From Candidatus Raymondbacteria bacterium RIFOXYA2_FULL_49_16 (GTDB taxonomy: Bacteria; Fibrobacterota; OXYB2-FULL-49-7; XYB2-FULL-49-35), in the NCBI GenBank assembly GCA_001789205.1, contig MFYT01000096.1, positions 85,522-117,891 on the forward strand: a stretch of 32,370 nt of DNA, in the 5' to 3' direction. A program made the translations under genes and the position numbers. The first letter of the stretch is position 1. Every line of letters begins with the position of its first letter. This document shows, piece by piece, positions 944 through 22,884 of the stretch. Below the pieces are notes generated by a model. The model had not been told where the DNA came from. It worked only from the letters and a program-made list of their open reading frames with translations, and did not search any database.

Positions 944-1312
944 TTAGTGGACCGATTCCAAACCTTGGGCAAGGGCGTATTCAACCACAGGCCTGTTCTC
1001 CATACCATGGCTGGCAAAGACCTTCCGGACCTTGTCCGGAGTAATATCACAATATATTACCCGTGGAAAACCTTTTACTTCAACAGTGACCATGGGTTCC
1101 CTGCTGCACATGCCCGCGCACCCTGAAGCGGAAACGTGTATGTCCGCATGGTTTTTCGCTTCGTAAGCAAATGCATCGAAGACCGCCTGGGCCCCTGCTG
1201 AGAGTCCGCACGTCCCCATATGGACAGTGATCCGCGCCCGGAAACCCTCGCGCTCTTCACGGGAGCGCCGGGCGAGCGCTGCAAGCCCATCCATGGTCAG
1301 TTTTTCCGTCAC
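944..1312 (-). CDS. Small thioredoxin-like [2Fe-2S] protein (HndB-like)
   Basis: A 122-residue protein resembling the stand-alone [2Fe-2S] subunit HndB of NAD(P)-linked hydrogenases, an electron carrier between NADH flavoprotein and partner. The thioredoxin-like ferredoxin signature appears as GTCGLSAGA (Cys35) and GCAGMC (Cys65 and Cys69). The first half carries only one cysteine, where NuoE proteins have C-x4-C, as in the HndB branch as I recall it. The N-terminal 25 residues are charged and contain no signal peptide, so it should act in the cytoplasm. Its ATG overlaps the stop of the NuoG-NuoE fusion by 4 bases, so the two are probably translationally coupled. With the NuoE domain of the fusion, the operon encodes two separate thioredoxin-like [2Fe-2S] domains. 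Confidence 0.85.
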   Translation of the reverse strand: MTEKLTMDGLAALARRSREEREGFRARITVHMGTCGLSAGAQAVFDAFAYEAKNHADIHVSASGCAGMCSREPMVTVEVKGFPRVIYCDITPDKVRKVFASHGMENRPVVEYALAQGLESVH

Positions 1313-4056
1313 TGGGCCCTCCGGTATTGTTCAAGTAACTGCGCGGTCTTTGCAGGCGTCAGTTTTGCATGGACATCGTTATTTATCATGACCGCGGGCG
1401 CAAGACCACACATGCCCAGGCAGCGCACCATCTCAAGTGAAAACTGCCGGTCAGGCGTAACGCCGCCCACGGAAATACCCAGACGCTCCTCAAACTCCTT
1501 CACGATTTCCTGGGCGCCCATTACAAAACAAGCGGTGCCCATGCACACTTTTATCTGGTTTTTTCCGCGCGGTTTCATGGAGAAAAATGAGTAGAACGAC
1601 ACAATGCCAAAGACATCGCTTGCCGGCAGATTGAGTCCAAGGGCAATATACGACTGAACGGGCAATGGAAGATAGCCGATCACTTCCTGCGCCTTCTGTA
1701 AAACCGGAATAAGGCCGCCTGTTTTTCCGCGATACGCGCTGAGTATGGCGTCCAGGTCTTTCTTTTTACCGTCAAGATGTCCGGCAGCAAGAAATTCCTT
1801 GAGCCGCTCCCTGGTATCTGATGCATTGGGCGCCGGGGTTACCAGACCAACGCCAACGCTCTCCTCGCACAACTTTTTACTATGGTATTCACCCGAACGC
1901 CAAGCCTTGTGGATAATATCAGGATAGCGATGATCGGGTATAAGCGCGTATTCCCTGCCGCCTTTTTCAAGCGACTCGTAAGTAAGGCCAGTGAGTTCAG
2001 GAACTGTTGCGAGAATTTCTTGTTCCCAAATATCACGGGCCGACTCATGATTCCAGGAAGCCCCCATGTGCCGCGCCAGAAGCGAAAAAATCTCCCATAC
2101 CGGTTTTGCCTGACCAAAAACAGGCGCCGCGGTACGCACCATGTTCACCTGCCTACGGCTGCTGATTGTTGTACCGTCGTACTCTGACCAGGCGGCCAGA
2201 GGAAGCACCATATCGGCGTCCACGCCTTTGAAAAGGGAAAAAGCGACTGTATAGTCGACCGTGGCCTGTTCCATACCCTGAAGAAGGGTATTCTCACCCA
2301 CGCAAAAAAGCATCTTTATTTTGCCGGTCCCGCATGCTTCAGCGACTTTTTCAAGATTTGGTCCCTTTGCGTTGGTAAGTCCGCAGTCCCACAACCGTTC
2401 GAACTGGTTTTTTCCCGGACTTGGCGCAATCTCAAGGAATCCGGGATAATAATCCGGCAATGCTCCCATAAGACAGGCGCCCAGTGTATTATTGTTGCCT
2501 GAAAAAGAATTGATGTTACCGTTGCCAAGTTTTTTGATGTTCTCGAACGTTTCGAGGCTTTGCACTGCCGCGCCGTCGTATACAACCAACGCCGGTCCCT
2601 GCTGAGCAATGAGCGCTTTGGCGGATTCAATATCAGCAGAGCTCACCCCCGTAACCGCACCAGCCTTGTCCGCGGAAATGGCGCCAATGAGGGCTGAAAT
2701 AATAATGTCTTCGGTCCCTATGCACGGTTTCAGGTGCAGCGCGGCAAAAGAAGCGAGTTTTGGGGTATCCGCGTCTATGAGAATCAACTGGCTTCCCCTC
2801 AATGTTCCCCGTTTGACAAAGGCGGTTGCCACAGGATTATCTTCTCCGATCCTGCCGCCAATAACTATGCAAAGCCGCGCCTCCTCTATTTCCCTGAAGG
2901 AATTGGCCATGAGGGAACCGGAAAAGGCCGCATGTTCGGACTGGTTAATGGCATTTGTCCCGACCAGGGTCCTGAAGAATTTCTGCAGCAGAAAGAAGTC
3001 CTCGTTCGTGTGACGCGGCGACACCACACAGGCAATAGCATCGGGGCCGTGTTGATCGCGCACATTCATTATTTTCCTGCCCACCAGTTCGAGCGCTTCG
3101 CTCCATGACGCCTCCCGGTAACCATTGGCTTCGCGGACAAGGGGCTTTGCCAACCGGTTGGCGGAATGGATGAAATCATAGGCAAACCTGCCCCGCATGC
3201 ACAGACTGCCCTGATTGGGCTTGGCGGATTCATCTCCGGTCACCTTGACGATCTTTCCTCCCTTTACATGCAGTACAAGACCGCAGCCAACACCGCAGAA
3301 ATGACAGACCGTGCGCACCATGGCCGTTTCCCATGGACGGGCGTGATAACGCGCCTTTTTTTCAACAAGCGCGCCAACCGGGCACGCCTGCACGCATTCG
3401 CCGCAAAAGACGCAGTCGGATCCAGCAAGGGACAAGTCTCCGGCGGTCACCACCTTGGCCGATTTGCCCCGGTAGCCCAGAGAGATGGCGTTGTTCACCT
3501 GCTGCTCGTTGCATGCCTGGACACACCTGCCGCAGAGTATGCACCGTGAAAAGTCTCTGATAATAAAGGGATTCGCATATTCGGCCGCATAGCGTGGTTT
3601 GGAGCCCTTGAACCGGGAACTCTTTACCTGGTACCGGTAGGCATAGTGCTGAAGTTTGCACGCGCCATAGACAGCGCACAGATCCCCGCCCGCATCGTAC
3701 GCTGCCGCACTGGTCTGCAATGCAGTCCATTCTTTGGCGTCAACACTGCGGGATGCGCAATTATGATTTCCCGATGAAAGAAGGAGTTCGAGAGTCGCCT
3801 TTCGTGATTTTACCACACGCGGACTCTCGGTTTTTACCACCATGTCTTTTGCAGCGGGCATGGAACAGGCCGGTACCAGACTCCGGGCCTTTTCAACCTC
3901 AACCACGCAGAGACGGCACGCGCCAGTAGGAATGGTCCCTTTAAGATGGCAGAGCGTGGGAATAGCAATGCTGTTCCGCTGCGCAACCGCAAGAATGGTT
4001 TCGCCGCTCTCAAAGGGATATTTGATCCCGTTTATGATAATGCCGTTTTCGATCAT
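1309..4056 (-). CDS. NuoG-like / formate-dehydrogenase-alpha-like Fe-S subunit fused to a C-terminal NuoE domain
   Basis: A 915-residue soluble electron-transfer subunit. Domains in order: [2Fe-2S] ferredoxin (Cys36, 47, 50, 64); a NuoG N3-type His/Cys motif (His98, Cys100, Cys127, Cys133) interrupted by about 24 extra residues; two 4Fe-4S motifs (Cys172-182 and Cys215-225); the molybdopterin-oxidoreductase Fe4S4 domain (Cys251, 254, 258, 286); a molybdopterin-oxidoreductase-like domain to about 690; and a NuoE-type thioredoxin [2Fe-2S] domain (Cys838, 843, 879, 883). The expected catalytic Cys/Sec of formate dehydrogenases is not seen: the aligned region reads NQSEHAAFSG. A wiring role like NuoG is therefore more likely than formate oxidation. 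The ATG at 4056 overlaps the rnfB stop by 4 bases and fits the ferredoxin N-terminus; an upstream non-ATG start at 4104 would overrun rnfB. Best call is a NuoG-NuoE fusion serving the adjacent NuoF. Confidence 0.88.
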   Translation of the reverse strand: MIENGIIINGIKYPFESGETILAVAQRNSIAIPTLCHLKGTIPTGACRLCVVEVEKARSLVPACSMPAAKDMVVKTESPRVVKSRKATLELLLSSGNHNCASRSVDAKEWTALQTSAAAYDAGGDLCAVYGACKLQHYAYRYQVKSSRFKGSKPRYAAEYANPFIIRDFSRCILCGRCVQACNEQQVNNAISLGYRGKSAKVVTAGDLSLAGSDCVFCGECVQACPVGALVEKKARYHARPWETAMVRTVCHFCGVGCGLVLHVKGGKIVKVTGDESAKPNQGSLCMRGRFAYDFIHSANRLAKPLVREANGYREASWSEALELVGRKIMNVRDQHGPDAIACVVSPRHTNEDFFLLQKFFRTLVGTNAINQSEHAAFSGSLMANSFREIEEARLCIVIGGRIGEDNPVATAFVKRGTLRGSQLILIDADTPKLASFAALHLKPCIGTEDIIISALIGAISADKAGAVTGVSSADIESAKALIAQQGPALVVYDGAAVQSLETFENIKKLGNGNINSFSGNNNTLGACLMGALPDYYPGFLEIAPSPGKNQFERLWDCGLTNAKGPNLEKVAEACGTGKIKMLFCVGENTLLQGMEQATVDYTVAFSLFKGVDADMVLPLAAWSEYDGTTISSRRQVNMVRTAAPVFGQAKPVWEIFSLLARHMGASWNHESARDIWEQEILATVPELTGLTYESLEKGGREYALIPDHRYPDIIHKAWRSGEYHSKKLCEESVGVGLVTPAPNASDTRERLKEFLAAGHLDGKKKDLDAILSAYRGKTGGLIPVLQKAQEVIGYLPLPVQSYIALGLNLPASDVFGIVSFYSFFSMKPRGKNQIKVCMGTACFVMGAQEIVKEFEERLGISVGGVTPDRQFSLEMVRCLGMCGLAPAVMINNDVHAKLTPAKTAQLLEQYRRAQ

Positions 4057-5948
4057 GCTTTTTGTTTTACCCGTGTATAGCAGACCAGGCCGCAGTCGAG
4101 ACAACGCGATGCCTCGTGCACTGCGCTTTGCTCATCAAATCCCGCATCTGTGTGCATTATCTGGAGGGCCTCAGCAGGGCTTCCAGCGCCCAAAAGCGAA
4201 GGTATGGTCCGTAGAATGGTTTCAAGGTCCTCAATGCGGTCTATGTTCTGGATGTCTTTTGTCTCATGTACCAGCTTTTTTTGAGGCTCAATAGGATCGC
4301 CCGAAAGATATCTGTGGAGCGACCTGACAATCTTACGGCCCGCGCCCACTGCATTGACCACAGCTGTATAATCGCTCACCCTGCCTGCCTCTACAGCGCC
4401 AAAAAGCCCCTCGTTCCGCTGCTCTGAAAATCCTCTGAAGGTCTCGACTGTGCGCCAGCCCACCCGGACGCCCTCCTCAAACACAGGAACAATGACCATT
4501 TCAGACAGCCTGCCTGTTTCAACAATGACACAATCTGCCGAGACCGCCTTTGGTGCTTGCGTATCGGTACTAATATTCACCGTGGTTAGAACATTGCCCG
4601 TTCCAGACAAGCCCACAACAAGTTCCCTGGCGCCTGGCCGCGCATTGACGACCCGTTTCCCGGAAATAAGCCTTTGCTCAGCCCCTTCCTGGAGCAAATC
4701 GACCTTCAGGTACACGCCTGGCATAGAGGATTCAGAAACAGCAGGGCCGCGTATCACTTTTCTGCTGTCCATGCCGCCAGTGGTAAAAAGAATTGCCGCA
4801 AAGCCGTCATTAAAAAGGGAGTCAAAGGTGATGTCCCGGCCAAAGAGACAATTGGTTTTTACTTCCACACCGGATTGAAGTATGCCATCTATCTCCCAGT
4901 CAAGCGCTGCTTTTGGCAGCCGGTCCCGGGTAATGACATAGCGGAGAACGCCGCCCAGTTCTGGCATGGCTTCAAAAATGACCGGCGAATGGCCTAGCCG
5001 CGCAAGATAATAGGCCGCTGTAAGACCCTCTGCGCCCCCGCCAATCACCGCCACTTTTTTTCCGGTCTTTTCAGCGGTATGCGAAACAACCCGCCTGCCC
5101 GAGGCCATTTCATAGTCAGCAACGAATTTCTTGAGTGTATTGATAGACACTGCCTGGTCCGCAAGGTTCCGGCGGCATTCAAATTCACAAGGCGCCGGGC
5201 AGATACGGCCGCAGACAAGAAGCAGAGGGTTTTTTTCGCGCATGACACGTATGGAATCTTCGTACCTTTTCTCGGCAATGGCCTTGATATACCTGGGAAT
5301 GTCAATCCCGGCCGGACAAGCACGCTGACAGGGAGCCGTGCATTCGGCGGCCGTGTATTCGCTGGTAAACCGCTTTTCATTCGTAGTGCGGACAATGATG
5401 CCTTTGGGACATATTTTTTCGCATATGCCGCAGCCTGTGCATAATTTCGCATTGACCACGGGCAGGGTTCCATGCATGGTAATGGCGTTGAATGGGCAGG
5501 CCTGCGCGCAGGTGCCAAGTCCCAGGCAGCCAATGGTGCAGGTCTTGGAACCGCCATAGAGCGCTGTGGCCGCCCTGCAGTCCCTGAATCCATTGTAAAA
5601 ATATTTGAGATCAGCATGTTCAAGATCGTATCGGCATCCCGGAAGCGCTATTTCAGGTTCGCGCATGCGGACTTCAATGCCAAGGACGCGCGCAACCTGG
5701 ATGGCAATGGCATTACCGCCCGCAACGCACACCGAGGGGCCCGCCTTGCCCGCAACCACGGCAGTAGCGGCGGCAGCGCAGCCCGCAAAACCACAGGCAC
5801 CGCAATTCGCACCTAAAAGCGCTCCGGTCACGGCTTCAATTCGGGGATCTTCCCGTACAAAGAAAATCCTGGCTGCAATGACAAGCATGCCCCCCAGCAG
5901 GAGGCCAAGGCCAAGCAGCGATAGAGTGGCGATAAGTACCGGTTGCAT
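4053..5948 (-). CDS. rnfB: RnfB fused to a GltD-like FAD oxidoreductase domain
   Basis: A 631-residue fusion. Residues 1-30 form the RnfB membrane anchor. Residues 49-74 hold the RnfB 4Fe-4S motif C-x2-C-x4-C-x16-C. Ferredoxin cysteines follow at about 137-151 and 170-180. Canonical RnfB ends near there, but this protein continues with a GltD-type N-terminal Fe-S domain (cysteines 203-258, with CQRACPAGIDIP and CGRICPAPCEFEC), an FAD Rossmann loop GGGAEG at about 303-308, and a final EASRCLDCG at about 612. RnfB is the ferredoxin-side subunit of the Na+/H+-pumping ferredoxin:NAD+ oxidoreductase; GltD-like domains pass NAD(P)H electrons through FAD. The usual second GxGxxA nucleotide loop after GKRVV is not recognisable. 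The gene starts 5 bases after rnfA and overlaps the NuoG-NuoE fusion by 4 bases. No frameshift is visible at the fusion junction. Confidence 0.92.
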   Translation of the reverse strand: MQPVLIATLSLLGLGLLLGGMLVIAARIFFVREDPRIEAVTGALLGANCGACGFAGCAAAATAVVAGKAGPSVCVAGGNAIAIQVARVLGIEVRMREPEIALPGCRYDLEHADLKYFYNGFRDCRAATALYGGSKTCTIGCLGLGTCAQACPFNAITMHGTLPVVNAKLCTGCGICEKICPKGIIVRTTNEKRFTSEYTAAECTAPCQRACPAGIDIPRYIKAIAEKRYEDSIRVMREKNPLLLVCGRICPAPCEFECRRNLADQAVSINTLKKFVADYEMASGRRVVSHTAEKTGKKVAVIGGGAEGLTAAYYLARLGHSPVIFEAMPELGGVLRYVITRDRLPKAALDWEIDGILQSGVEVKTNCLFGRDITFDSLFNDGFAAILFTTGGMDSRKVIRGPAVSESSMPGVYLKVDLLQEGAEQRLISGKRVVNARPGARELVVGLSGTGNVLTTVNISTDTQAPKAVSADCVIVETGRLSEMVIVPVFEEGVRVGWRTVETFRGFSEQRNEGLFGAVEAGRVSDYTAVVNAVGAGRKIVRSLHRYLSGDPIEPQKKLVHETKDIQNIDRIEDLETILRTIPSLLGAGSPAEALQIMHTDAGFDEQSAVHEASRCLDCGLVCYTRVKQKA

Positions 5949-5953
5949 ATATC

Positions 5954-6547
5954 CTATTTTAATGCTGTTAAAGAAGCGTCAACGCCCGCAAAACCAAAAA
6001 AAGCCAGCGCCATAAGTCCCGCGGTAATCAGAGTTATTGCCGTGCCCTGGAGCGCTCTGGGCACTGGTGAGACCGATATCCGTCTCCGGATCCCGGCCAT
6101 TAACACAAGCGCAAGAGAAAATCCCGCGGCAGAAGCAAGGGAGAAGACTATGGTATGGACAAAATCGTAATCGCGGCGGATACAGATGATAGCCACCCCG
6201 AGTACCGCGCAGTTTGTCGTAATAAGAGGCAGATAAATGCCCAGTGCCTGGTAGAGTAACGGCGCGCTTTTTTTCAGGAACATTTCCACAAGCTGGACAA
6301 GTGCCGCAATAACCAGGATAAAGACCAGCGTCTGGAGGTAGCCAAGGCCAAAAGGATCGAGCATATATCGCTGCACAACCCACGTACAGGCGCTCGAAAG
6401 GGTCAAAACAAAAATGACCGCCATGCCCATACCTAGGGCCGTGTCCATTCTGTTTGAAACACCGCAAAAAGGACAGTTTCCAAGATATTGGGCAAGCAGG
6501 ATGTTTTTTACTAGCATAGCGGAAATGACGAGTATCAGCAGTTCCAT
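5954..6547 (-). CDS. rnfA: Rnf complex integral membrane subunit A
   Basis: A 197-residue hydrophobic protein with about six membrane segments, matching RnfA in length and sequence (KNILLAQYLGNCPF near the N-terminus, DTALGMGMAV, and LITTNCAVLG). Together with RnfE it forms the membrane-embedded channel-like core of the Rnf ion pump. The cysteines thought to hold the membrane [2Fe-2S] cluster shared by RnfA and RnfE are present (Cys25 and Cys113). It lies 4 bases downstream of rnfE and 5 bases upstream of the rnfB fusion. Nothing in it departs from the family, so the ion-translocating core looks functional even though the electron-input subunits of this operon are unusual. Confidence 0.96.
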   Translation of the reverse strand: MELLILVISAMLVKNILLAQYLGNCPFCGVSNRMDTALGMGMAVIFVLTLSSACTWVVQRYMLDPFGLGYLQTLVFILVIAALVQLVEMFLKKSAPLLYQALGIYLPLITTNCAVLGVAIICIRRDYDFVHTIVFSLASAAGFSLALVLMAGIRRRISVSPVPRALQGTAITLITAGLMALAFFGFAGVDASLTALK

Positions 6548-6551
6548 GACA

Positions 6552-7145
6552 TCACCTCTTCCCCAATGAATTCATGATGCCTAAAATAAGGCCAAGGCAG
6601 ACAAATGCGCCCGGCGCTTCTACCAAAAAAGAAAAAGGTTGATAGCTGCTGCCCATAACCTGCATGCCAAACCAGGTACCGCTGCCCAATATCTCCCGGA
6701 TGGAGGCAAGAACAGTAAGCGATAAAGTATACCCAATCCCCATGCCCAGGCCATCAAGAGCTGAAGGCAGCACCGGATTTTTTGACGCAAAGGCCTCTGC
6801 CCTGCCAAGAATAATGCAGTTTACCACAATGAGCGGTATAAATATCCCCAGTTTCTGATAGAGGGGAAAAAAATAGGCCTGGGTTATCATTTCGACCAAG
6901 ACCACATAGGTAGCCACAATGGCGATATAACTGGCTATCCGTACTTTTTTTGGAATCACGTTACGTAAAAGAGAAACCAGCACGTTGGAACAGAGCAGCA
7001 CAAAAGTGACGGCAATACCCATGCCAAGGCCGCCATCAGCCGATTTTGTCACAGCGAGCGCCGGACAAAGTCCGAGCACCAGCCTGAAGGGCGGTATCTC
7101 TTTCCAGAGACCCTTAGTAAATTCCCTAATTCTCAGATCCATCAT
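6552..7145 (-). CDS. rnfE: Rnf complex integral membrane subunit E
   Basis: A 197-residue multi-pass protein of the RnfE/NqrD family, partner of RnfA in the ion-pumping core. Family features are LGLCPALAVTKSA near the N-terminus, GLGMGIAVTFVL, IPLIVVNCIILGRAEAFA, and a final GLILGIMNSLGKR. Cys27 and Cys110 match the cluster-binding cysteines expected opposite those of RnfA. The gene opens with two consecutive ATG codons (7145 and 7142). The first overlaps the rnfG stop as ATGA and is used here, with AAAGG just upstream. The length is typical, apart from the absence of a long C-terminal tail seen in some homologues. Confidence 0.96.
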   Translation of the reverse strand: MMDLRIREFTKGLWKEIPPFRLVLGLCPALAVTKSADGGLGMGIAVTFVLLCSNVLVSLLRNVIPKKVRIASYIAIVATYVVLVEMITQAYFFPLYQKLGIFIPLIVVNCIILGRAEAFASKNPVLPSALDGLGMGIGYTLSLTVLASIREILGSGTWFGMQVMGSSYQPFSFLVEAPGAFVCLGLILGIMNSLGKR

Positions 7146-7717
7146 TTGCCTTTCAACACGCGCTGTTTACGCTCCTGATATCTCAGCAGATTGCTAATAA
7201 CAGCCGCACAAGCGCCCCGTGATGAGACCGTTGCTCCTGAAATACCGTCTATAACGCCGCCATCAGCCCGTATTTTCATGATATCGTTAACTGATTTTCC
7301 CTTGAAAAGACCGGTAAACGCCTCCTCGGTAATACGCAAACCAATACCCGGCGTCTCAGAACACGAGGTAACAGCCATGCCGGTAATAGTATCCATTGCA
7401 ATGTTGTATCCGACAATAATACATATATCACCGCCAAAACCGGCTGCTTTTGAACCGCAGGCAATTGAAACGAGAGAATCGCCCCGCTTCCCAAGAAAGA
7501 GCGTGGCGCCACCGGTACTATCCTGTATCTGCATCCTATCCGATACCGGATCGTTTGTTGTCTCTTCGAGGACCTTCTTGATCGCAGGGCCTTCCACATA
7601 TCGCAGAAACTGGTCTTCAATGCACTCTCGCGTCAGGGTGCGCGCTCCTGCGAGCAAAAACCCGCACAACCCGCAAAAAAGGGTAAGCATGCCGATCATT
7701 TTCAGATTCTCGTTCAT
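7142..7717 (-). CDS. rnfG: Rnf complex FMN-binding subunit G
   Basis: A 191-residue RnfG/NqrC-type protein. It has one N-terminal membrane helix (about residues 7-25) followed by an extracytoplasmic FMN-binding domain. The covalent flavin motif is clear: DGISGATVSS, with Thr163 the expected phosphodiester-linked FMN site. The segment GYNIAMDTITGMAVTSCSETPGIG matches the family's G-x-I-xGxxVxxxxETPGxG pattern. RnfG shuttles electrons on the outer face of the membrane between RnfD and the remaining subunits. It overlaps rnfD upstream and rnfE downstream by 4 bases each. Unlike RnfC and RnfD in this operon, its cofactor motif is unaltered. Confidence 0.95.
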   Translation of the reverse strand: MNENLKMIGMLTLFCGLCGFLLAGARTLTRECIEDQFLRYVEGPAIKKVLEETTNDPVSDRMQIQDSTGGATLFLGKRGDSLVSIACGSKAAGFGGDICIIVGYNIAMDTITGMAVTSCSETPGIGLRITEEAFTGLFKGKSVNDIMKIRADGGVIDGISGATVSSRGACAAVISNLLRYQERKQRVLKGK

Positions 7718-8682
7718 ATCTGCTGCACCTTTTCAAATTGCCGCGGTTTGGACAAAACCATTTCAAGAAGCGGGGCCGCGATATTCATGATCATGATTGC
7801 AAAGATAACGCCGTCTATGTTCGAACTCCATACTCTGAGGAGCATTGCGAATACTCCAGCACCAAGCCCGTAAAAGAACCTTCCCGGAGGATTTCCTGGA
7901 GAACTCGCGTAGTCGGGCGCAAGGAAAAAGGCGCCCAAAAGCGCGTTTCCGGCAAGTATATGGAAAAGCGGACCAGCATACCTGGCCGGATCAACACTAT
8001 GGAAGAGCTGGCTGCAAAGCGCAATGCCAATGAGGAAAGACGCGGGAACAATCCACGATGCGAATCCCCGAAGAACAAGGTAGGTCCCGCCCGCAACAAT
8101 ACAAAGCGCGGATGCTGCGCCAATACCGCCTGCCTGATTGCCCAGCAGAAGGTCTTTTATCGCGAATTGGCCGATCCCCGCCGCGCCCTCTTTTTTCAGG
8201 ACAGAGAGTGGATAGAGGGTCGAAAAACCCGGATCATAGTTTAACAGAGAAAAGTCAAAATTCACATACTGGGGCCATGAAAGAAAGACAACAGTCCAGC
8301 CCACAAGCACGGAATTAATGGGATTGCATCCAAGTCCTCCAAACACATGCTTTCCAACAAGCATGCTCATAAACGCGCCAACGAGGATGACCCAGAAGGG
8401 CGTTGACGGAGGCAAAAGAAGGGCAAAGAGCAGGCCCGCAAAAGCAGCGCTGCCATCGTGAACGGTTATTTCCCGTCTGAAAAGCCGCTGTAAAATGATT
8501 TCAAAAACCATGGCTGAACCCATGGAAAGAAGTATGACCCTGAGCGCGTGCAGGCCATAGTGACTGACGCCAATTGCGGCAGCTGGCATAAGGGCAAGAA
8601 TGGTATTAAGATACATGGTGGTAACATCCGCCTTGCTGTGGCTGTGCGGCCGGAACGAGACAACAAGCGGGGCCTGTCTCAT
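7714..8682 (-). CDS. rnfD: Rnf complex membrane subunit D
   Basis: A 322-residue multi-pass RnfD/NqrB-family protein. Recognisable segments are HDGSAAFAGLLFALLLPPSTP (split here as HDGSAAFAGLLFALL plus LPPSTP, about 75-95), VGKHVFGGLGCNPINSVLVG (about 109-128), LSWPQYV, LLLGNQAGGIGAASAL (about 178-193) and the C-terminal helices. RnfD normally carries covalent FMN on a Thr in an S/T-x-A-T-P-L motif ahead of the LLLGN segment. The corresponding stretch reads FSTLYPL (153-159), so the flavinylated Thr seems to be missing or shifted. It overlaps rnfC and rnfG by 4 bases each. Membership of the family is secure; the flavin question is an alignment by eye. Confidence 0.95.
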   Translation of the reverse strand: MRQAPLVVSFRPHSHSKADVTTMYLNTILALMPAAAIGVSHYGLHALRVILLSMGSAMVFEIILQRLFRREITVHDGSAAFAGLLFALLLPPSTPFWVILVGAFMSMLVGKHVFGGLGCNPINSVLVGWTVVFLSWPQYVNFDFSLLNYDPGFSTLYPLSVLKKEGAAGIGQFAIKDLLLGNQAGGIGAASALCIVAGGTYLVLRGFASWIVPASFLIGIALCSQLFHSVDPARYAGPLFHILAGNALLGAFFLAPDYASSPGNPPGRFFYGLGAGVFAMLLRVWSSNIDGVIFAIMIMNIAAPLLEMVLSKPRQFEKVQQI

Positions 8683-9701
8683 ACTGCGGCCTCCCCTTTT
8701 TTCAATTCATCTGAGGCAAAGGAGATTAGCTGGAGCAGGGGTCTGTGCGCCGGGCAGACATACGAACAGAGCCCGCATCCTATGCAGGAATCGATCGCAT
8801 ATTCCCGGCACGTGTCAAAGCGTGAATATTCGGCGTAACGCGCAAGATGATTGACCTTTAAACGGGCCGGACAGACAGCCGTACATTTACCGCAATTGAA
8901 ACAAGGTACGCTTTCATAGCGCACCAGCTCTTTTTCCGTCTGCGCCGCAATGCCGTCGGTTTGACTGGTTACCTGAATAGCGGCGGGCTGGTAGATTGCG
9001 CTGCCTGTCAGCAAGCCGCCGCAGACGACCTTTCTTACCACAGCCATGTCAACGGACTGCGAATCCAGGACCGATTGAACGCTTTGACCAACGCGCACAC
9101 ATACATTCTTGCGCTGGGGAAACCCGCTACCAGAGAGCGAAACCAGTTTTGTGGTTGGCGCTGCGCCCGTTTCAACAGCATTAGTCATGGCCACAAGCCG
9201 TTCGGCATTCACATACATGCTTGTACCCACGCCCGACCGCAACCGCTTTACCATGGAAGCAAGCATCTGGGGAAAACCATTTGGATACACTGGGGCTATG
9301 ACGGCCACCTCAGCCAGATCCGCGGCCAATGACACGGCCCGTTTTCTTTGGCAAGGAAATATCGCAAGCACAATTTTTTTTGGTTGGATGATATGTTGCA
9401 GCAGGCTGAGTCCCCTGGCAACCGTGTCCGGATACAGGGAAAAAACATGCTGCTGAATGGTCACTGCCGGGTCTGTATCACAGGCGCTGACAATGACAGT
9501 GTCAGCATCGGACGGAACAGCGCCAAGGCCAAAACCAAAGGTTTGCAGCTTTTCCCTGAGTTCCGTTGGCTTTTCCTGGAGAAAACCCGCAGTGAGTTTG
9601 ACAGGGCTTTCCGGGACAGCGTCGCGCATATCTAGATAGGGCAGCTCCTGCCCATGCCGGACCCGAAATGGAACTATGCCAAAAAACGAACGGATACCCA
9701 T
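8679..9701 (-). CDS. rnfC: Short, divergent RnfC
   Basis: A 340-residue RnfC homologue. The C-terminus carries the two expected 4Fe-4S motifs (Cys267, 270, 273, 277 and Cys306, 309, 312, 316) followed by HRPLLQLI. The middle follows the RnfC fold, with NGFPQML in place of the usual YPQGxEK and a GVGTSMYVNAERLV segment aligned to the NVGTA region. The N-terminus is shorter than typical RnfC (usually about 430 or more residues): the GGIHPP barrel-sandwich region and the GLGGATFP FMN loop are missing, and the NGAECEPYLT motif reads SACDTDPAVT (72-81). Loss of FMN/NADH binding is inferred. The ATG at 9701 is chosen because AAAGG lies 7 bases upstream and the gap to the cytochrome gene is 4 bases; an upstream start at 9737 would overlap that gene. 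Confidence 0.9.
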   Translation of the reverse strand: MGIRSFFGIVPFRVRHGQELPYLDMRDAVPESPVKLTAGFLQEKPTELREKLQTFGFGLGAVPSDADTVIVSACDTDPAVTIQQHVFSLYPDTVARGLSLLQHIIQPKKIVLAIFPCQRKRAVSLAADLAEVAVIAPVYPNGFPQMLASMVKRLRSGVGTSMYVNAERLVAMTNAVETGAAPTTKLVSLSGSGFPQRKNVCVRVGQSVQSVLDSQSVDMAVVRKVVCGGLLTGSAIYQPAAIQVTSQTDGIAAQTEKELVRYESVPCFNCGKCTAVCPARLKVNHLARYAEYSRFDTCREYAIDSCIGCGLCSYVCPAHRPLLQLISFASDELKKGEAAV

Positions 9702-9705
9702 TGAT

Positions 9706-10083
9706 TTACCTTTTATGACACAGGGAACAGTCGTCAAGCCCGTGGCAATCCGCGCACTGTGATCCTATGCAGCGCGTATGTATCTTTGCCTCTTTACATG
9801 CGCCCGCAGCGTGGCCGCGTGCATCATAGTGACACTCCCGGCAACGCATAACCGTCTGTTTTCCACCGTTAGGATCATAATTATGGTGGCACTGCGCGCA
9901 TTCAAGGCCGGCTTTATCGGGCCCAATATGCCGCGGATGGTCAAAAACAACAGGGCCGCCCTTTGCAAGGAACAGGACCTTTGCGGGAGATGATTTTTTT
10001 TCAAGCGCAAATCCGGCAAGACCCGCTGCCAGACAAAAAAAGGCAATGACCATCCAAAAAACCTTTTGCGCCTTTTTCTTCAT
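9706..10083 (-). CDS. Periplasmic tetraheme cytochrome c (class III / c7-like)
   Basis: A 125-residue exported cytochrome. Residues 1-26 form a Lys-rich start plus hydrophobic signal peptide ending near GFA. Four CxxCH heme c sites are visible at 62-66, 81-85, 110-114 and 119-123. Extra histidines at 49, 52, 67, 91 and 102 are candidates for distal ligands, and the FDHPRH segment is typical of cytochrome c3/c7 proteins. It is the first gene of the rnf operon, 4 bases before rnfC. A multiheme cytochrome at the head of rnfCDGEAB is known in Desulfovibrio (dhcA-rnf) and, with a different protein, in Methanosarcina. By analogy it could exchange electrons with RnfG/RnfD on the outer face. The ribosome-binding site is weak. 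Confidence 0.93.
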   Translation of the reverse strand: MKKKAQKVFWMVIAFFCLAAGLAGFALEKKSSPAKVLFLAKGGPVVFDHPRHIGPDKAGLECAQCHHNYDPNGGKQTVMRCRECHYDARGHAAGACKEAKIHTRCIGSQCADCHGLDDCSLCHKR

Positions 10084-10372: not shown

Positions 10373-11563
10373 TTATTTGGCAACTACGAATTTCGCAAAC
10401 ATCTTTTGTCCATTGCTTTTTATTCCAAAAATGTACAAACCTGGGGGCAGAGTATTGATTTTTATCCGTGTTTCGCCTGCAGAAATGGATAGTGTGTTTT
10501 CAAACACCTTTTTCCCACAAATGTTTTTAATAGAAACCTCTGTTCTCGATGAATACATTGTCCGTGGCGTTATTATGGATAGTGTGTTCGGGGTCATATA
10601 CTGAACACACAACGTGGCGCTGGATATTGTTGGACTTTGTTTCTTTGCAATTGATAACTCTGCATCCGGTGATGTATGAATTGTTCCAGAGATGCTCACG
10701 GCAACATACTGGCTGTTTCCATAAGTAATTGAAGAAAGGTGATGCGTTATCCCAGAGATTTGGCTTGTCCATGTAATGCCATCCGTAGAGGTAAGAACGC
10801 TGCCACTCTCTCCAACAACAACATATTGATTGTTACCATAGACGATCGAAAAAAGATAGCTAGACAAACCAGACGTTCTATGTGTCCATAATATGCCATC
10901 AGAAGAAGTAATGATGATACCACTATCCCCTACGGCGATATACTGGTTGTTGCCATAAGTGATTGATGCAAGGTTTTTACTTGTTCCAGTGGTCTGACTT
11001 GTCCATGTCGTGCCATTAGGAGAGGTAAGCATCGTCCCGCCGTAACCATCAGCGATAAATTGGTTGTTGCCATAAGTGATCGAATTAAGGGAGCTTGATG
11101 TTACAATGTTTTCTGTCCAAGATATTCCGTCTACTGAGGTATTGATGTGGTTGCCCGTGCCCAAAGCCACATATTGATTGTTGCCATAGGTGATTGAATA
11201 GAGATAATACGGTGCACCTCCATTGTTCGTGATGTTTGCCCAAGTTATACCATCAGTTGAAGTGACTGTGGTAGTGGCATTGTATTGGGACATAATATAG
11301 CCCCCACCCACCGCAACGAATTGGTTGTTTCCATAGGTGATTGAATTAAGCCCAACCGTTGTTCCTGAGTTTCTGCTGGTCCAATTCATGCCATCCGAAG
11401 ATGTTAGAATTGTACTATTACCCCCCACAGCAATAAACTGGCTGTCTCCAAACGTGATTGAATTAATGTTGTACGTTGTTCCTGAGGTCCTATTAGTCCA
11501 ATCAACCTGGGCAAAGCAGGTAATGGAAAATAGAATGATTATTACTTGTGTTATTTTAAACAT
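10373..11563 (-). CDS. Secreted seven-repeat beta-propeller protein with C-terminal sorting domain
   Basis: A 396-residue exported protein. The ATG at 11563 gives a classic signal peptide (residues 1-18, ending CFA) and has AAAGGA upstream; earlier in-frame starts back to 11617 would bury it. From about 25 to 295 there are seven tandem repeats of about 38-48 residues, each with SITYGNNQY-AVG ... ILTSSDGITWT. This is the sialidase/Ycf48-like blade pattern, so a seven-bladed propeller is expected. The C-terminal 75 residues (beginning near MYSSRTEV, ending LPPGLYIFGIKSNGQKMFAK) form a type A-like sorting domain. The substrate is unknown. The region is lower in GC than the rnf operon. Confidence 0.85.
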   Translation of the reverse strand: MFKITQVIIILFSITCFAQVDWTNRTSGTTYNINSITFGDSQFIAVGGNSTILTSSDGMNWTSRNSGTTVGLNSITYGNNQFVAVGGGYIMSQYNATTTVTSTDGITWANITNNGGAPYYLYSITYGNNQYVALGTGNHINTSVDGISWTENIVTSSSLNSITYGNNQFIADGYGGTMLTSPNGTTWTSQTTGTSKNLASITYGNNQYIAVGDSGIIITSSDGILWTHRTSGLSSYLFSIVYGNNQYVVVGESGSVLTSTDGITWTSQISGITHHLSSITYGNSQYVAVSISGTIHTSPDAELSIAKKQSPTISSATLCVQYMTPNTLSIITPRTMYSSRTEVSIKNICGKKVFENTLSISAGETRIKINTLPPGLYIFGIKSNGQKMFAKFVVAK

Positions 11564-11873
11564 TATGAGTCCTTTCCATATGCGATAAAAATGCATTACA
11601 TTTTCTTTTCTACGCACAGACTTGGCCTATACCGGCGCGTTTTTAGACAATGTCCGCTTTCCATTTAAATTAATCTCTTCCACTTCTTTTCGCAAGCATA
11701 TTTATGCGCTCTCCGTCAAAATCGAGATATAGCCGGCAATTCTTCAAAAATTGACCACACGGGAAGCTCTAGAGGCAATGATCGCAATTTATGATTCAGC
11801 ATGTCTTCAAAAAACTCTTTTCAATATTTATGCGGCCAGCCCCAGAGCCTCACGGTTATTTTATTTAGCATGA
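11564..11873. other. Intergenic stretch, no gene recognised
   Basis: About 310 bases between the two secreted-protein genes. No convincing terminator hairpin, RNA gene or coding sequence was seen. It should contain the promoter of the propeller gene, whose AAAGGA ribosome-binding site is at its low-coordinate end, but no clear -35/-10 pair stands out. Confidence 0.4.
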
Positions 11874-12785
11874 CTACCTCGTTAAAACTGCCATAGCAAT
11901 ATATTTGCTTTCTAAACCGCTAATATTATTGACGCACACATAATACGAGCCACTCGGAAGGCCTGATGCATTCCATGAATAAACAGGCGCATCCACTTGC
12001 TTTTTATATACACAAGCTCCGGTAACATTATATATCCTTAGATATTGGATTGAATTCCCTTGGCTAAGAGCAATCTTTACTGTGGAATTAAAAGGGTTAG
12101 GGCTAATATTCAAGTTGTTTTTTATGTGTTTATTCGGCTCTTGAAAATCGATTGATGCAACGGTGTCATAATAAGTTGAGCCTGAGCCTTTTTTAAAATC
12201 CCTAAGATAGTAATATGGCCCTGTAAAGCGGCAAAATTCAGTAAAAAATGGGCCGCGTATATTACCAATCCCCAATAGAATCGTATCAGCGTACGTTTCA
12301 CCACATAGATAATCATAATAATATGCATCATATATGGTATTCATTAATAAAGATTGGCCTATTCCTTTGAAATATTTTGTCATGTACAATGGCTCAAATA
12401 AATCTACACTTACCTGAATAGAATCCCCAACTGTCGTTGTTAAAAAATCGTAGAGTATTACTTCTGAATCTGAAACAGAATGTCTATAATAAACTTTTCT
12501 GAGTGAATCTTCACGAATCCAACCATAGAATGAATGATTAGAAATCTCAGTGCCAGCATCATCCTTTTCATAGCTATAGATATTTGTATACATAGTTTGA
12601 CCAATGTTAGTTTTACCGTCAAGAACATATTTAAAATGAGAAATTTCATACCCAGGAGGGCCACTAATTTCTGAATATCTATCAACAGCCCAAATTGCAC
12701 TATCCGTCGGAAATGGTACATATGTCTGAGCCGAGTTTACTGAAACTATCATAATAATAAAGAATCCACATAAAGAACGAAACAT
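11874..12785 (-). CDS. Secreted protein of unknown function with C-terminal type A sorting domain
   Basis: A 303-residue exported protein. The ATG at 12785 follows GGAGG by 5 bases and gives a signal peptide (MFRSLCGFFIIMIVSVNSAQ); in-frame starts further out to 13028 add an implausible charged leader. The body (20-220) is rich in Tyr, Asp and Ser, and I do not recognise the fold. The last 80 residues are a clear sorting domain: NISPNPFNSTVKIAL, LRIYNVTGACVYKK, then ASGLPSGSYYV. Such ends direct export and surface attachment through type IX secretion in the FCB group. The gene stands alone, has low GC like its neighbour, and may be an extracellular or cell-surface protein. Confidence 0.8.
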   Translation of the reverse strand: MFRSLCGFFIIMIVSVNSAQTYVPFPTDSAIWAVDRYSEISGPPGYEISHFKYVLDGKTNIGQTMYTNIYSYEKDDAGTEISNHSFYGWIREDSLRKVYYRHSVSDSEVILYDFLTTTVGDSIQVSVDLFEPLYMTKYFKGIGQSLLMNTIYDAYYYDYLCGETYADTILLGIGNIRGPFFTEFCRFTGPYYYLRDFKKGSGSTYYDTVASIDFQEPNKHIKNNLNISPNPFNSTVKIALSQGNSIQYLRIYNVTGACVYKKQVDAPVYSWNASGLPSGSYYVCVNNISGLESKYIAMAVLTR

Positions 12786-13055
12786 AAAACCTCCATTAGT
12801 TAATACGATTTTTATTCGTATGTCTGGTGTGGATCGAGAGCCTCTTTTGGTCTTTCTCTCTTTATAGGAACATAAATTAGGGTCGTTTCTCACGCTATAA
12901 TCTCTTTCGTGCGAATCATTTATTCTGCCAGTTCTCCCTCGGATTTCCTTATATTCTTGTAAGAAAAGGCGGGATCGGGAAAGACATTTTTCCTGTGAAT
13001 TTCCCCACCCCCTTATGAACTTTTGCAATGAAAGGGTCTATCGTAAAAGATCACC

Positions 13056-13649: not shown

Positions 13650-14663
13650 TCAGCAGATACGGGGAAGCTCTTCCCCTGCGGGGACCTCAACAATTCGTTC
13701 GCCGCCCATGGCGGTTTTTAACAACACCATCCCCGGGTGATCAGGGACAACGGAACCAATAATGCGTGCATTTTTTCCCAAGGTATGCGTTCTCAGGATC
13801 GAGATCGCTCTCTCTGCAGCATCAGCAGAGCATACAACGATCGCCTTGCCTTCGTTAGCAACATTCAACGGGTCAAAACCTAATAAGCCGCACGCACCTT
13901 TTACAGCCTTTTTAATAGGCAGATGGCTTTCCACCAGTTCAATGCCCACGTTCGAACTCTCAGCAATGTCGCACACGCCAGCTGCAACTCCACCACGCGT
14001 TGGATCATGCAAAACATTTATAGAAGCCACTAACTCATTGAATAATAAGCTAATGAGACTATCGAGCGATGCAACATCACTCTCCAGATCACTTTCGAAA
14101 CTTAATCCCTGGCGTTTCCCAATAACCGCAATGCCATGGTCGCCTATTGTACCTGTAACAATGACCACATTACCTGGTTTTGCATTGGAAATACCAGCAG
14201 AAACGCCTGGCCTGCGCACACCAATACCTGAGGTGTTAATGTACAAACCATTGCCCCTGCCCTTTTCCACCACCTTGGTATCGCCCGTAACAACAAGCAC
14301 GCCTGTTTCGCGCGAAACAGCGGCAATTGATCCAAATATTTTGTCCAAATCAGCAATGGCAAACCCTTCTTCAATGATCAGTCCTAATCCAATGTATTTT
14401 GGGATCGCGCCTTGCATGACAAGATCGTTTATCGTTCCGCACATGCAGAGCTTGCCAATATCGCCGCCTGGGAAAAAAAGAGGATTCACCACATACGAAT
14501 CAGTGGTAAATGCCAGATCAGGAGATTCGAACGAAACAACAGCGCTATCATCAAGCTGGTTCAAAATAGGATTGCCAAGATGCGCTAACACCAGTTCCTT
14601 GATGAGATTCCTGGTGCGTATTCCTCCCCCTCCGTGGGCAAGGGTAATGATATCATTTTTCAT
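13650..14663 (-). CDS. hypE: [NiFe]-hydrogenase maturation protein HypE
   Basis: A 337-residue HypE. It dehydrates the carbamoyl group made by HypF, turning a C-terminal thiocarbamate into the thiocyanate that donates CN to the active-site iron. Seen here: AHGGGG near the N-terminus, DDSAVV, TTDSYVV, the GDTKVVEKG motif, HDPTRGG, NVANEGKAIV, and the essential C-terminal PRIC with a terminal Cys. The ATG at 14663 overlaps the hypD stop as ATGA and follows GAGGGG. It is last in the rex-hyp operon. Length and motifs are those of a functional enzyme. Confidence 0.96.
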   Translation of the reverse strand: MKNDIITLAHGGGGIRTRNLIKELVLAHLGNPILNQLDDSAVVSFESPDLAFTTDSYVVNPLFFPGGDIGKLCMCGTINDLVMQGAIPKYIGLGLIIEEGFAIADLDKIFGSIAAVSRETGVLVVTGDTKVVEKGRGNGLYINTSGIGVRRPGVSAGISNAKPGNVVIVTGTIGDHGIAVIGKRQGLSFESDLESDVASLDSLISLLFNELVASINVLHDPTRGGVAAGVCDIAESSNVGIELVESHLPIKKAVKGACGLLGFDPLNVANEGKAIVVCSADAAERAISILRTHTLGKNARIIGSVVPDHPGMVLLKTAMGGERIVEVPAGEELPRIC

Positions 14664-15730
14664 GCGCCCCTCTTTTTCGCGTACGCATAATAGGCCGCGC
14701 AGGTCCCTTCGCTCGAAACCATGCACGCACCCACAGGTTCCGACGGCGTACACTGCCTGGCAAAAAGGGCGCAGTCGTATGGCGTCTTCACTCCTCTTAA
14801 TATTTTACCGCAGATGCATGCGGGATTTTCATCGTCAGACTCTATCGCAATATCTGAAAAAATCAATTCAGCGTCAAAGGCCGCGTATTCCCTGCGTATT
14901 TTTAAACCGCTGCCCGGTATGCGTCCCACGCCACGCCACATAGCATCGCACGGTTCAAAAACCTCCTGTATAATACGCTGGGCAGCCAGGTTTCCTTCGG
15001 GCGTAACGCTCCGGGAATATTCTATCTCAACACTGGACCGACCTTCAACAATCTGGCGTAACAACATCTCTATGGCGCCAACCATGTCCATTGGCTCAAA
15101 ACCAGCCACAACGCAGGGGACCTTGTGCTTTTCCGCTAGAAACGCATAAGCGTTCGATCCAATGACAACGCTGACATGCCCAGGGCAGAGAAAACCATTG
15201 ATATCAATGGGTCCGGCTGAAACAAGAGCGGCCATTGCCGCTGGCATTGTTTTGTGCATGCACAGGACTGAAAAATTGGCCACACCTGTCTCAGCGCTGT
15301 TTTTAATGGTCCATGCCACACCGGGAACAGTTGTCTCAAACCCCACACCTAAAAAGACAACCCGTTTGTCCGGGTTTTTTCGTGCCAGGTCCAAAGCATC
15401 GAGCGGGGAATATACCACATGTACATGGCCGCCCTGGGCACGCACGCGTTCGAGCGATGTAGTGCTTCCAGGAACCTTGATCATGTCGCCAAAGGTGGCC
15501 ACGATTGTGTCAGGACAACCGGCAATGGCAATGGCTTTGTTGATTGAATCGTTTGCCGTGACACAGACCGGACATCCGGGCCCGGAAATGAGTGACAGCC
15601 GCTCTGGAAGCAGGGAACGCAGTCCAGACCTGAAGGCCGCCATGGTATGAGTACCGCATACTTCCATGAACTTAAGCGGCTGTTTTGCCTCTGCAAAAAG
15701 CGCGTACACCTGTTCAATGCGTTTATTCAT
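14660..15730 (-). CDS. hypD: [NiFe]-hydrogenase maturation protein HypD
   Basis: HypD scaffold, about 356 residues, which with HypC assembles Fe(CN)2CO for [NiFe]-hydrogenases. Signature stretches are MEVCGTHTMA, SGPGCPVCV, GVGFETTVP, LCPGHVS, GFEPMDM and the C-terminal cluster region with CICG. The conserved Cys of GTHT and GPGCPVC motifs are all present. The start is taken at the ATG at 15730, which overlaps the hypC end by 8 bases and has AGGA about 10 bases upstream. ATG 15739 is an alternative that would add three residues. It overlaps hypE by 4 bases. Confidence 0.96.
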   Translation of the reverse strand: MNKRIEQVYALFAEAKQPLKFMEVCGTHTMAAFRSGLRSLLPERLSLISGPGCPVCVTANDSINKAIAIAGCPDTIVATFGDMIKVPGSTTSLERVRAQGGHVHVVYSPLDALDLARKNPDKRVVFLGVGFETTVPGVAWTIKNSAETGVANFSVLCMHKTMPAAMAALVSAGPIDINGFLCPGHVSVVIGSNAYAFLAEKHKVPCVVAGFEPMDMVGAIEMLLRQIVEGRSSVEIEYSRSVTPEGNLAAQRIIQEVFEPCDAMWRGVGRIPGSGLKIRREYAAFDAELIFSDIAIESDDENPACICGKILRGVKTPYDCALFARQCTPSEPVGACMVSSEGTCAAYYAYAKKRGA

Positions 15731-15971
15731 GCGGACCATGTCCTGGCGCGCCAGGTTCAACACTGCGCATTTCATCCATCAGACCGTTGAACTCAGCCAC
15801 ATCAGCTTCAGACCATTTTTGAATGGCAAATCCGGCATGAACAATAACATGGTCGCCAACCTTCGGGTCTGGGATGAGCGAAACAACCACTTCCCGCCGT
15901 ATGCCTTCAGTATCAATGATCGCCTTTTCACCGTCTATACTCACAATTTTCGCTGGTACTGCAAGACACAT
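15723..15971 (-). CDS. hypC: [NiFe]-hydrogenase maturation chaperone HypC
   Basis: An 82-residue HypC/HybG chaperone that carries the iron centre with HypD and hands it to the hydrogenase large subunit. The N-terminus must be Met-Cys so that Cys2 is exposed. The ATG at 15971 gives MCLAVPAK exactly, so the slightly longer start at 15977 is rejected. The OB-like core shows the VGDHVIVHAGFAI motif. The tail is Gly/Pro/His-rich and short. It lies 18 bases after hypF and overlaps hypD. Confidence 0.96.
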   Translation of the reverse strand: MCLAVPAKIVSIDGEKAIIDTEGIRREVVVSLIPDPKVGDHVIVHAGFAIQKWSEADVAEFNGLMDEMRSVEPGAPGHGPHE

Positions 15972-15989
15972 AAACAACCGCCATTCCGG

Positions 15990-18236: not shown

Positions 18237-18882
18237 GCCTTGCCAAACCCGATATCCAGTCAATCCACTGGGAAAATCCTGATGCGGTAAAGGAGGATAT
18301 CTCGAACACGGGCACTGCGCTGTTCACTTGTTTCACATATCCCATGCACGCAGCCAGATCGAACCGAAGGTGCGGCAAAAGGTCTGTTTTGGTGAGCACA
18401 ACCGCGCCCGACTCCCTGAAAAGAGAGGGATATTTGATGGGCTTATCTTCACCTTCGGTAACGCTTAAAAAAGCCACTTTCATATGTTCGCCAATATCGA
18501 ATTCAGCGGGACAGACCATATTGCCCACATTTTCCACAATCACCACATCAAGATCGTTAAGGGGCAGGTCTCTAAGTCCGTGATACACGAGCTTTGCCGA
18601 CAAATGGCACGCGCCGCCCGTGATAAGCTGGTATGCGATGACCTGCACAGCGTGCAGCCGTTCCGCGTCGCGCGTTGTTTCAACATCGCCTTCGAGTACG
18701 GCAAACCGGACTTTTTTTCCCAGGGCTTCCGCGGTTTTTTCCAGAAAAGTGGTCTTGCCGCAGCCGGGCGATCCGATAAAATTCAACATGAGCACTTTTT
18801 TTTCTTTGAGCAAACCCCGGCATTTTTCAGCCCAGACATCGTTAGCTCCCATCAAATTGCGGTAGACCTTTATTTCACTCAT
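18220..18882 (-). CDS. hypB: Hydrogenase nickel-insertion GTPase HypB
   Basis: A 220-residue HypB, the GTPase that supplies nickel to the hydrogenase large subunit together with HypA. It shows the P-loop GSPGCGKT (37-44), the metal-site residues Cys91, His93 and Cys124 in ENVGNMVCP, and the TKTDLLP guanine-binding loop (164-170). There is no His-rich nickel-storage extension and no N-terminal CxxCGC motif, as in many shorter HypB proteins. The ATG at 18882 follows GAGG and overlaps the end of hypA by 8 bases. Confidence 0.96.
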   Translation of the reverse strand: MSEIKVYRNLMGANDVWAEKCRGLLKEKKVLMLNFIGSPGCGKTTFLEKTAEALGKKVRFAVLEGDVETTRDAERLHAVQVIAYQLITGGACHLSAKLVYHGLRDLPLNDLDVVIVENVGNMVCPAEFDIGEHMKVAFLSVTEGEDKPIKYPSLFRESGAVVLTKTDLLPHLRFDLAACMGYVKQVNSAVPVFEISSFTASGFSQWIDWISGLARHEKTA

Positions 18883-19237
18883 TGTCCACAACCTCTATGC
18901 TTTCAAGAAAAAGCTCGCGTCCGCCCGTCAATTTCCCCTCGATCGCCCCGCATTTGGCACAGATAAACCCGATCACCGGCCCCTGGAGTTCACCTTCCCA
19001 TGCGCACAGTGCGCACACACCCGTTGCCGGTGCGCGTACAATTTCAAGCACCGATGAATCAGCGCAGGTATCTTTAGTCAGGGTCTCGTAGGCAAACTGT
19101 AGTGTGTCTGGAACAATCTGGCGGAGATCGCCGACCTTCACGCGCGCTCTGACCACTCGTTTGGATACAGGTCCGGCTGCAGCAGCCTCAGCGATAATTG
19201 CCTCCACCAATCCCTGGCAAATAGAAAATTCATGCAT
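18875..19237 (-). CDS. hypA: Hydrogenase nickel-insertion protein HypA
   Basis: A 120-residue HypA, the nickel metallochaperone working with HypB. The invariant MHE start (nickel ligands Met1, His2, Glu3) fixes the start at 19237; in-frame codons back to 19345 lie inside rex and are rejected. The structural zinc site is Cys75, Cys78, Cys93 and Cys96. It starts 34 bases after rex on the same strand, with no clear ribosome-binding site, which fits co-transcription with rex as the first hyp gene. Length is normal. Confidence 0.95.
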   Translation of the reverse strand: MHEFSICQGLVEAIIAEAAAAGPVSKRVVRARVKVGDLRQIVPDTLQFAYETLTKDTCADSSVLEIVRAPATGVCALCAWEGELQGPVIGFICAKCGAIEGKLTGGRELFLESIEVVDNE

Positions 19238-19271
19238 AAACGGAAAAAATACGATGCTGTGCTGGGAATGA

Positions 19272-22878: not shown

Positions 22879-22884
22879 TGGGGG

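Follow-up and report, generated by a model that had tools for sequence, protein, structure and literature searches.

An RnfB-GltD fusion predicted to carry FAD without binding NAD(P)H in an Rnf2-type operon of Candidatus Raymondbacteria

Introduction

Can a GltD-like flavoprotein domain fused to RnfB still contribute to electron transfer when the part that should bind NAD(P)H is missing? This question is raised by a fusion gene in a 32,370-nucleotide stretch of the genome of Candidatus Raymondbacteria bacterium RIFOXYA2_FULL_49_16, which is called the window here. A sequence-only reading of this DNA had proposed that the added domain holds FAD, does not itself bind NAD(P)H and acts as a flavin relay between Rnf and the products of the next genes.

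In the Rnf complex of A. woodii, electrons pass from RnfB via AE1 in RnfA/E to FMN on RnfG, then to FMN and riboflavin in RnfD and finally through RnfC to NAD+ (PMC11889175). In the Rnf2/Tol2-type cluster of D. toluolica, RnfB is about 700 aa long and has NAD-binding sites, RnfC lacks the NADH domain, and a small cytochrome is encoded as well (PMC5109826). Rnf2 belongs to the core genome of the Desulfobacteraceae, is constitutively expressed and has been drawn as a link between the NADH and ferredoxin pools (PMC11887813). In StnABC, the GltD FAD is connected to a HydBC-type core, and the FAD of the GltD part of StnC is a non-bifurcating relay (PMC10482914).

Results

The fusion is encoded by an uninterrupted open reading frame of 631 aa at positions 4053-5948 of the minus strand, in which RnfB is joined to a GltD/NfnB-like domain. 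The RnfB part (residues 1-190; 5379-5948, minus strand) consists of a membrane anchor, an Fe-S domain (GANCGACGFAGC) and a 2x[4Fe-4S] domain, and is matched by the Pfam FeS and Fer4 models, NCBIfam RnfB and the PDB entries 7zc6 (RnfB, E=3e-50) and 9eri. As the sequence-only reading had stated, its Fe-S cysteines are all present. Residues 186-430 match the Fe-S and FAD half of NfnB/StnC/GltD (9n5u, E=8e-54; 9bov; 8oh5), and the two elements that had been recognized by eye in this half were recovered, namely the N-terminal [4Fe-4S] domain (Fer4_20, Pfam PF14691, E=8e-24; residues 202-283; 5100-5345, minus strand) and the FAD-binding loop GGGAEG (residues 303-308; 5025-5042, minus strand), which is intact as GGGAEGL and carries the class-B signature of the fusion alignment described below.

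The second GxGxxA loop had been read as missing from a shortened region, and this was borne out. The NADPH domain spans about 165 residues elsewhere and roughly 65 residues in the window fusion, where neither GxGxxA nor YRR is found. In an alignment with an NfnB-like protein from contig C71 of the window's own genome and 40 other fusions, what is left of the GGGNTAxDxA/YRRS domain is a short stretch with RVVNARPGARELVVG at residues 432-446 (4611-4655, minus strand), the position at which an alignment to 55 fusions places the missing loop. Pfam, NCBIfam and PDB sequence searches gave no significant match across the stretch expected to hold the NADPH domain. No remnant of this domain was seen in the other two minus-strand frames of the fusion, and the possibility of a frameshift or a hidden NADPH domain was rejected on this ground. 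Further downstream, GLFGAVE (residues 514-520; 4389-4409, minus strand) replaces the C-terminal FAD motif GVFAGGD of the relatives, and a C-terminal CLDCGLVCY motif (4077-4103, minus strand) is conserved across fusions. Among 38 aligned fusions, little or no variation was found at the cluster cysteines C207, C211, C250, C254, C258, C616, C619 and C623 or at R343 in the RLPK motif.

The structure predicted by AlphaFold2 from the alignment of 38 fusions (pLDDT 81) has beta strands as the sole secondary structure in residues 430-501 and is free of helices between residues 428 and 527. In contrast, the model of the relative L050 (682 aa), calculated with the same sequence set, shows the full second Rossmann fold of GltD/NfnB (E426-430/H434-445/E450-455/H466-474/E478-481). 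An intact Rossmann fold within residues 380-520, which would contradict the proposed loss of NAD(P)H binding, was thus seen in the L050 control and not in the window protein. Foldseek identified NfnABC and StnABC as the nearest structures to the window model, with A. woodii RnfB also matched. The prediction that the window domain carries FAD and does not bind NAD(P)H is therefore well supported by the sequence, by the predicted structure and by an entire sister clade whose NADPH motif is degraded and whose FAD loop is kept, with the qualification that the C-terminal FAD motif of the window protein is altered.

To place the fusion among its relatives, we sorted 56 RnfB-GltD fusions into two classes, for which the names class A and class B were coined in this analysis. 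Class A (25 of the 56) shows the usual proline in its FAD loop, which reads GGGPxGL or GAGPAGL, and retains GGGNTAxD and YRR in all 25 members. The 31 members of class B, including the window protein, lack that proline and mostly read GGGAEGL or GGGVEGL; none has the canonical NADPH loop with YRR, with a loose GxGxxA left in many. The loop is hence not lost from all fusions, a question that the sequence-only reading had raised, since it is kept throughout class A and its canonical form is absent throughout class B. The N-terminal FAD loop was found in 56/56 fusions. Each class forms one clade of the fusion tree (100/100 support). The window protein pairs with L194 (99/95) and, together with it, groups with L192, L205, L206, L208 and L209 (100/99); its own branch is long (0.88). 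The window protein is the extreme case, being the only one among the fusions seen in which the NADPH domain is wholly gone.

Such fusions are common in the deltaproteobacterial-type genomes searched. The class-A relative L050, full-length and with an intact NADPH loop, was found in a deltaproteobacterial MAG by a genome scan. The 395 genomes searched of its phylum yielded over 50 fusions of full length (about 680-730 aa); in the order of G225, about 60 of 85 genomes encode one. Among 168 genomes of the window's own phylum, the fusion was detected in this genome only. A search of the 13-genome phylum around L058, performed without a positive control, gave no fusion.

The two classes also differ in their neighbors. 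Genes for FDH, NuoE, NuoF or NuoG adjoin the fusion in 17/31 class-B loci and 0/25 class-A loci (Fisher p=3e-6, a value that ignores shared ancestry and unequal flanks). The neighbor at seven loci is a formate dehydrogenase gene in which an in-frame TGA occupies the Sec position (CARLUHSSTVAGL). About half of the class-B fusions have no NuoEFG or FDH genes within the fetched flank, which counts against the explanation favored below.

The remaining Rnf genes of the window lie upstream of the fusion on the minus strand. Both RnfA (5954-6547; C25 and C113) and RnfE (6552-7145; C27 and C110) possess the cysteines of the membrane [2Fe-2S] cluster, and RnfG (7142-7717) keeps the SGAT flavinylation motif. 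RnfD (7714-8682) reads STLYPL instead of SGATPL at the site of the covalent-FMN threonine, and RnfC (8679-9701; about 340 aa from the ATG at 9701) lacks the N-terminal domain and the GLGGAxFPT FMN/NADH loop while both of its [4Fe-4S] clusters are kept. We compared the 24-25 readable fusion operons with 64-66 non-fusion Rnf operons as controls. The RnfC loop was present in 0/24 fusion operons vs 63/64 controls, and the threonine context of RnfD in 0/24 vs 65/66, whereas the flavinylated Thr/Ser of RnfG was retained in both groups (25/25 and 60/60). A loss of the covalent-FMN threonine from every RnfD would be too strong a statement, since six fusion RnfDs hold T or S in the aligned column, outside a GAT context. 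The single exception among the controls with respect to RnfC is L051, a Desulfobacterales MAG whose RnfB is longer (477 aa) and not fused to GltD, whose RnfC loop and RnfD threonine context are lost and whose genome encodes a separate 991-aa GltD protein. Because L051 shows these losses without the fusion, the GltD fusion and the RnfC/RnfD losses are associated but not strictly linked. The genome of the window also keeps a canonical Rnf paralog on contig C8.

Next to rnfC, a membrane-anchored class III (c3-like) tetraheme cytochrome c with four CxxCH motifs is encoded at 9706-10083 on the minus strand (Pfam PF02085, E=2e-8). A multiheme cytochrome c was found within the fetched flank of 15/25 fusion loci vs 3/65 controls. 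Near the fusions of L154-L161, L174 and L178 no cytochrome was found, and this likewise counts against the favored explanation.

On the other side of the fusion, the gene that follows encodes a subunit derived from FDH/NuoG and fused to NuoE (1309-4056, minus strand; 915 aa from the ATG at 4056), whose start overlaps the rnfB stop. All NuoG-type Fe-S ligands are kept in it. Unlike in FdhA, the catalytic Sec/Cys-His loop is absent, owing to an 11-residue deletion around the CARLUHSSTVAGL site, and NuoE replaces the last, C-terminal Mo domain. The same or a larger loss of the catalytic loop was observed in the FDH/NuoG-like subunits of L194 and L205-L209. Two further genes complete the module on the same strand: a thioredoxin-like [2Fe-2S] protein (Trx; 944-1312) equivalent to the N-terminal domain of HydB/BfuB-type subunits, which was assigned from a weak NCBIfam 2Fe-2S ferredoxin match below the cut-off, Cys35/65/69 and synteny with L205-L209, and a NuoF/HydB-like subunit of 501 aa (1-931), which runs off the window and is complete in L009. 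The latter has the GLRGRGGAGF FMN/NADH loop and a C-terminal 2x[4Fe-4S] domain. Although separate, the Trx and NuoF genes together hold the NADH/FMN loop and all HydB/BfuB cysteine sets, and a BfuC-type [2Fe-2S] site is present as well. The NADH/FMN site of NuoF is the only intact nucleotide site that was found in the operon. Stop and start codons overlap by 4 bp at both rnfB/nuoG-E and nuoG-E/trx, and the operon order is the same in L205, L206, L208, L209 and L194.

Two of these relatives show further variation. NuoF is fused to a second GltD domain in L205 (12730-15813) and L206 (3-2927), with an intact FAD loop (GPAGL) and an NADP loop that was unmatched by the pattern used; this looks like a transfer of the pyridine-nucleotide reader from RnfB to NuoF. 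In L205, PHP-domain and HATPase genes (10502-11980) lie between the NuoG-NuoE and Trx genes, a position at which the window has neither.

Discussion

Judged from sequences and models, the operon has lost the NAD(P)H domain and the catalytic motifs of RnfC, RnfD and FDH, with the NuoF, RnfG and Fe-S motifs intact in a conserved gene order. With the first leg of Rnf preserved and the return leg interrupted at RnfD and RnfC, an exchange between RnfG and the cytochrome is the simplest reading, and the wiring of the pump appears to have changed such that electrons pass between NADH and a periplasmic cytochrome. We consider it reasonably probable that the window encodes a class-B, Rnf2-type RnfB whose GltD-like extension is an NAD(P)H-blind FAD/Fe-S relay, that NuoF reads NAD(H) and that the route runs between NADH and the cytochrome. 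This route, from NADH through NuoF, the NuoE/NuoG-derived subunit, the GltD domain, RnfB, RnfA/E and RnfG to the cytochrome, is suggested because NuoF is the sole intact nucleotide site and because the parts are analogous to those of StnABC. NADH would enter at the FMN of NuoF, and electrons would move to the Fe-S clusters of NuoE and the dead FDH/NuoG subunit, from there to the Fe-S cluster and FAD of the GltD domain and then to the Fe-S clusters of RnfB. Transfer from RnfB to the [2Fe-2S] cluster of RnfA/E would be the ion-pumping step, followed by FMN on RnfG and the class III cytochrome c. The second leg of canonical Rnf, from the FMN of RnfD to NADH at RnfC, would be disabled, and the reverse route may be possible if driven by the ion gradient. 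With its proposal of a relay between Rnf and the products of the next genes, the sequence-only reading is plausible and gains from the context, namely the FDH/NuoEFG neighbors of class B, the 4-bp overlap and the intact NuoF; FAD occupancy, the relay role, direction, cytochrome exit and bifurcation are what we infer beyond it.

Ferredoxin may be a third partner, because the NuoF/NuoE/Trx set has the ligands of the HydBC/Bfu bifurcating core. A more elaborate version, which we put forward only tentatively, is an Rnf-Bfu respiratory complex, in which a HydBC-type bifurcating NADH/ferredoxin core would feed the NAD(P)H-blind GltD domain and the first leg of Rnf, with RnfG exchanging electrons with cytochrome c3 and not with NAD+. 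If this is true, such a complex would represent a third membrane-bound Bfu class and a one-legged ion pump.

Rather unlikely, in our view, is that the GltD remnant is a structural dock that holds the NuoEFG/FDH-like module against RnfB, its FAD being lost or redox-idle. The changed C-terminal FAD motif and the missing NADPH domain would agree with this, as would the C1/C2 cluster branch of StnC, a non-functional electron-transfer remnant that possibly serves stability or assembly (PMC10482914). However, the N-terminal FAD loop occurs in every fusion, and an idle domain is not expected to keep all ligands in the way that the cluster cysteines and R343 are kept in the 38 aligned fusions. The NuoG-like subunit could also be docked elsewhere and feed RnfB directly, in which case the GltD part would be no more than a docking fold, and this counts against the relay. 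Decay of the operon, leaving RnfC, RnfB-GltD and the FDH relic as pseudogene-like leftovers of a horizontal transfer, appears improbable: while the presence in 1/168 genomes of the phylum, the long branch, the three missing catalytic sites and a GC content of 53% vs 45-47% in the rest of the window point in this direction, all frames are open and their stops and starts overlap tightly, the Fe-S ligands are kept without exception along with the motifs of NuoF, RnfG and RnfA/E, and relatives from other genomes show the same losses.

It is very improbable that the complex has an ordinary, class-A-like function in which NADPH or NADH is still used via the fused domain or RnfC. Class-A fusions do keep an intact NADPH loop and YRR, and Rnf2 has been modelled as a link between the NADH and ferredoxin pools (PMC11887813), but the window protein has no NADPH domain and its RnfC loop is absent. 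We give hardly any credence to a sequencing or assembly error as the origin of the missing NADPH domain. The genome is a single draft without a second copy for comparison; yet the deletion is in frame, the other two minus-strand frames hold no remnant, and the loss of the motif is graded across class B. The relay reading remains the one we prefer.

Compared with known systems, the window encodes a variant of Rnf2, neither a typical member nor a new category. It shares with Rnf2/Tol2 the RnfB-GltD protein, an RnfC without NADH site and a small cytochrome, and the loss of the RnfC NADH domain was already noted for Tol2 (PMC5109826). It differs in that its RnfB is 631 aa long without any NAD-binding site, as opposed to an RnfB2 of about 700 aa with such sites, and is followed by the NuoG-derived/NuoE subunit, Trx and NuoF. 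RnfA, RnfE, RnfG and the RnfB core are intact as in canonical Rnf (A. woodii and the C8 paralog of the same genome), whereas the FMN/NADH site of RnfC (G[LM]GGAxFP) and the covalent-FMN threonine of RnfD are lost. The transhydrogenases StnABC and NfnABC (8oh5, 9bov, 9n5u) combine similar parts, i.e., GltD, a NuoG/FdhF relic, NuoE and NuoF. In contrast to these, the GltD domain of the window sits on RnfB and apparently does not bind NADPH, and Rnf is predicted to attach the complex to the membrane. NuoF, Trx and NuoE resemble BfuB/BfuC with all cluster cysteines, and the NuoG part resembles BfuA (PMC9304861); the portion of the Bfu description considered here names Mbh-Bfu and Nuo-Bfu as membrane-bound types and contains no Rnf-linked one. 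For the Rnf of M. acetivorans, electrons have been proposed to exit via a multiheme cytochrome (PMC12174285), as we suggest for the window. Unlike in the window, a GltD fusion or NuoEFG module is not described for that Rnf (PMC12174285).

Beyond the sequence-only reading, the fusion is of a known type (Rnf2), the NADH and flavin sites of RnfC and RnfD are lost, and the next gene encodes a dead relative of formate dehydrogenase. Foremost among the new results are the split into classes A and B, the association of this split with FDH/NuoEFG genes, and the finding that fusion-type Rnf has lost the sites of RnfC and RnfD together. The latter suggests that the NAD branch is disabled at RnfC and RnfD and that the leg from cytoplasm to periplasm is kept, which bears on what Rnf2 reduces. 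There are two sub-types, one with the NADPH reader kept on RnfB and one with the reader lost, often beside FDH/NuoEFG modules, and the question of the partner is directly testable. Fusion-type Rnf also lends itself, as a minimal system provided by nature, to the question of which half of Rnf pumps ions.

The rest of the window holds genes of several kinds. Two proteins with T9SS sorting domains (10373-13028, minus strand) are encoded between the rnf operon and the hyp genes. The latter lie upstream of the operon (13650-19943, minus strand) and comprise hypE, hypD and hypF, identified by family matches, hyp-like open reading frames and a Rex-like redox repressor. They are followed at 20155-26033 (minus strand) by a Type III restriction enzyme and a Type III methyltransferase, with an open reading frame between them that matches PADLOC PDC-S13 and a Type I specificity model. 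A serine-recombinase-like open reading frame (26394-26966, minus strand), read by eye and without a PADLOC match, lies beside the defence genes. On the plus strand, HamA (DUF1837) and the helicase HamB (27498-31437) constitute a Hachiman anti-phage system according to PADLOC.
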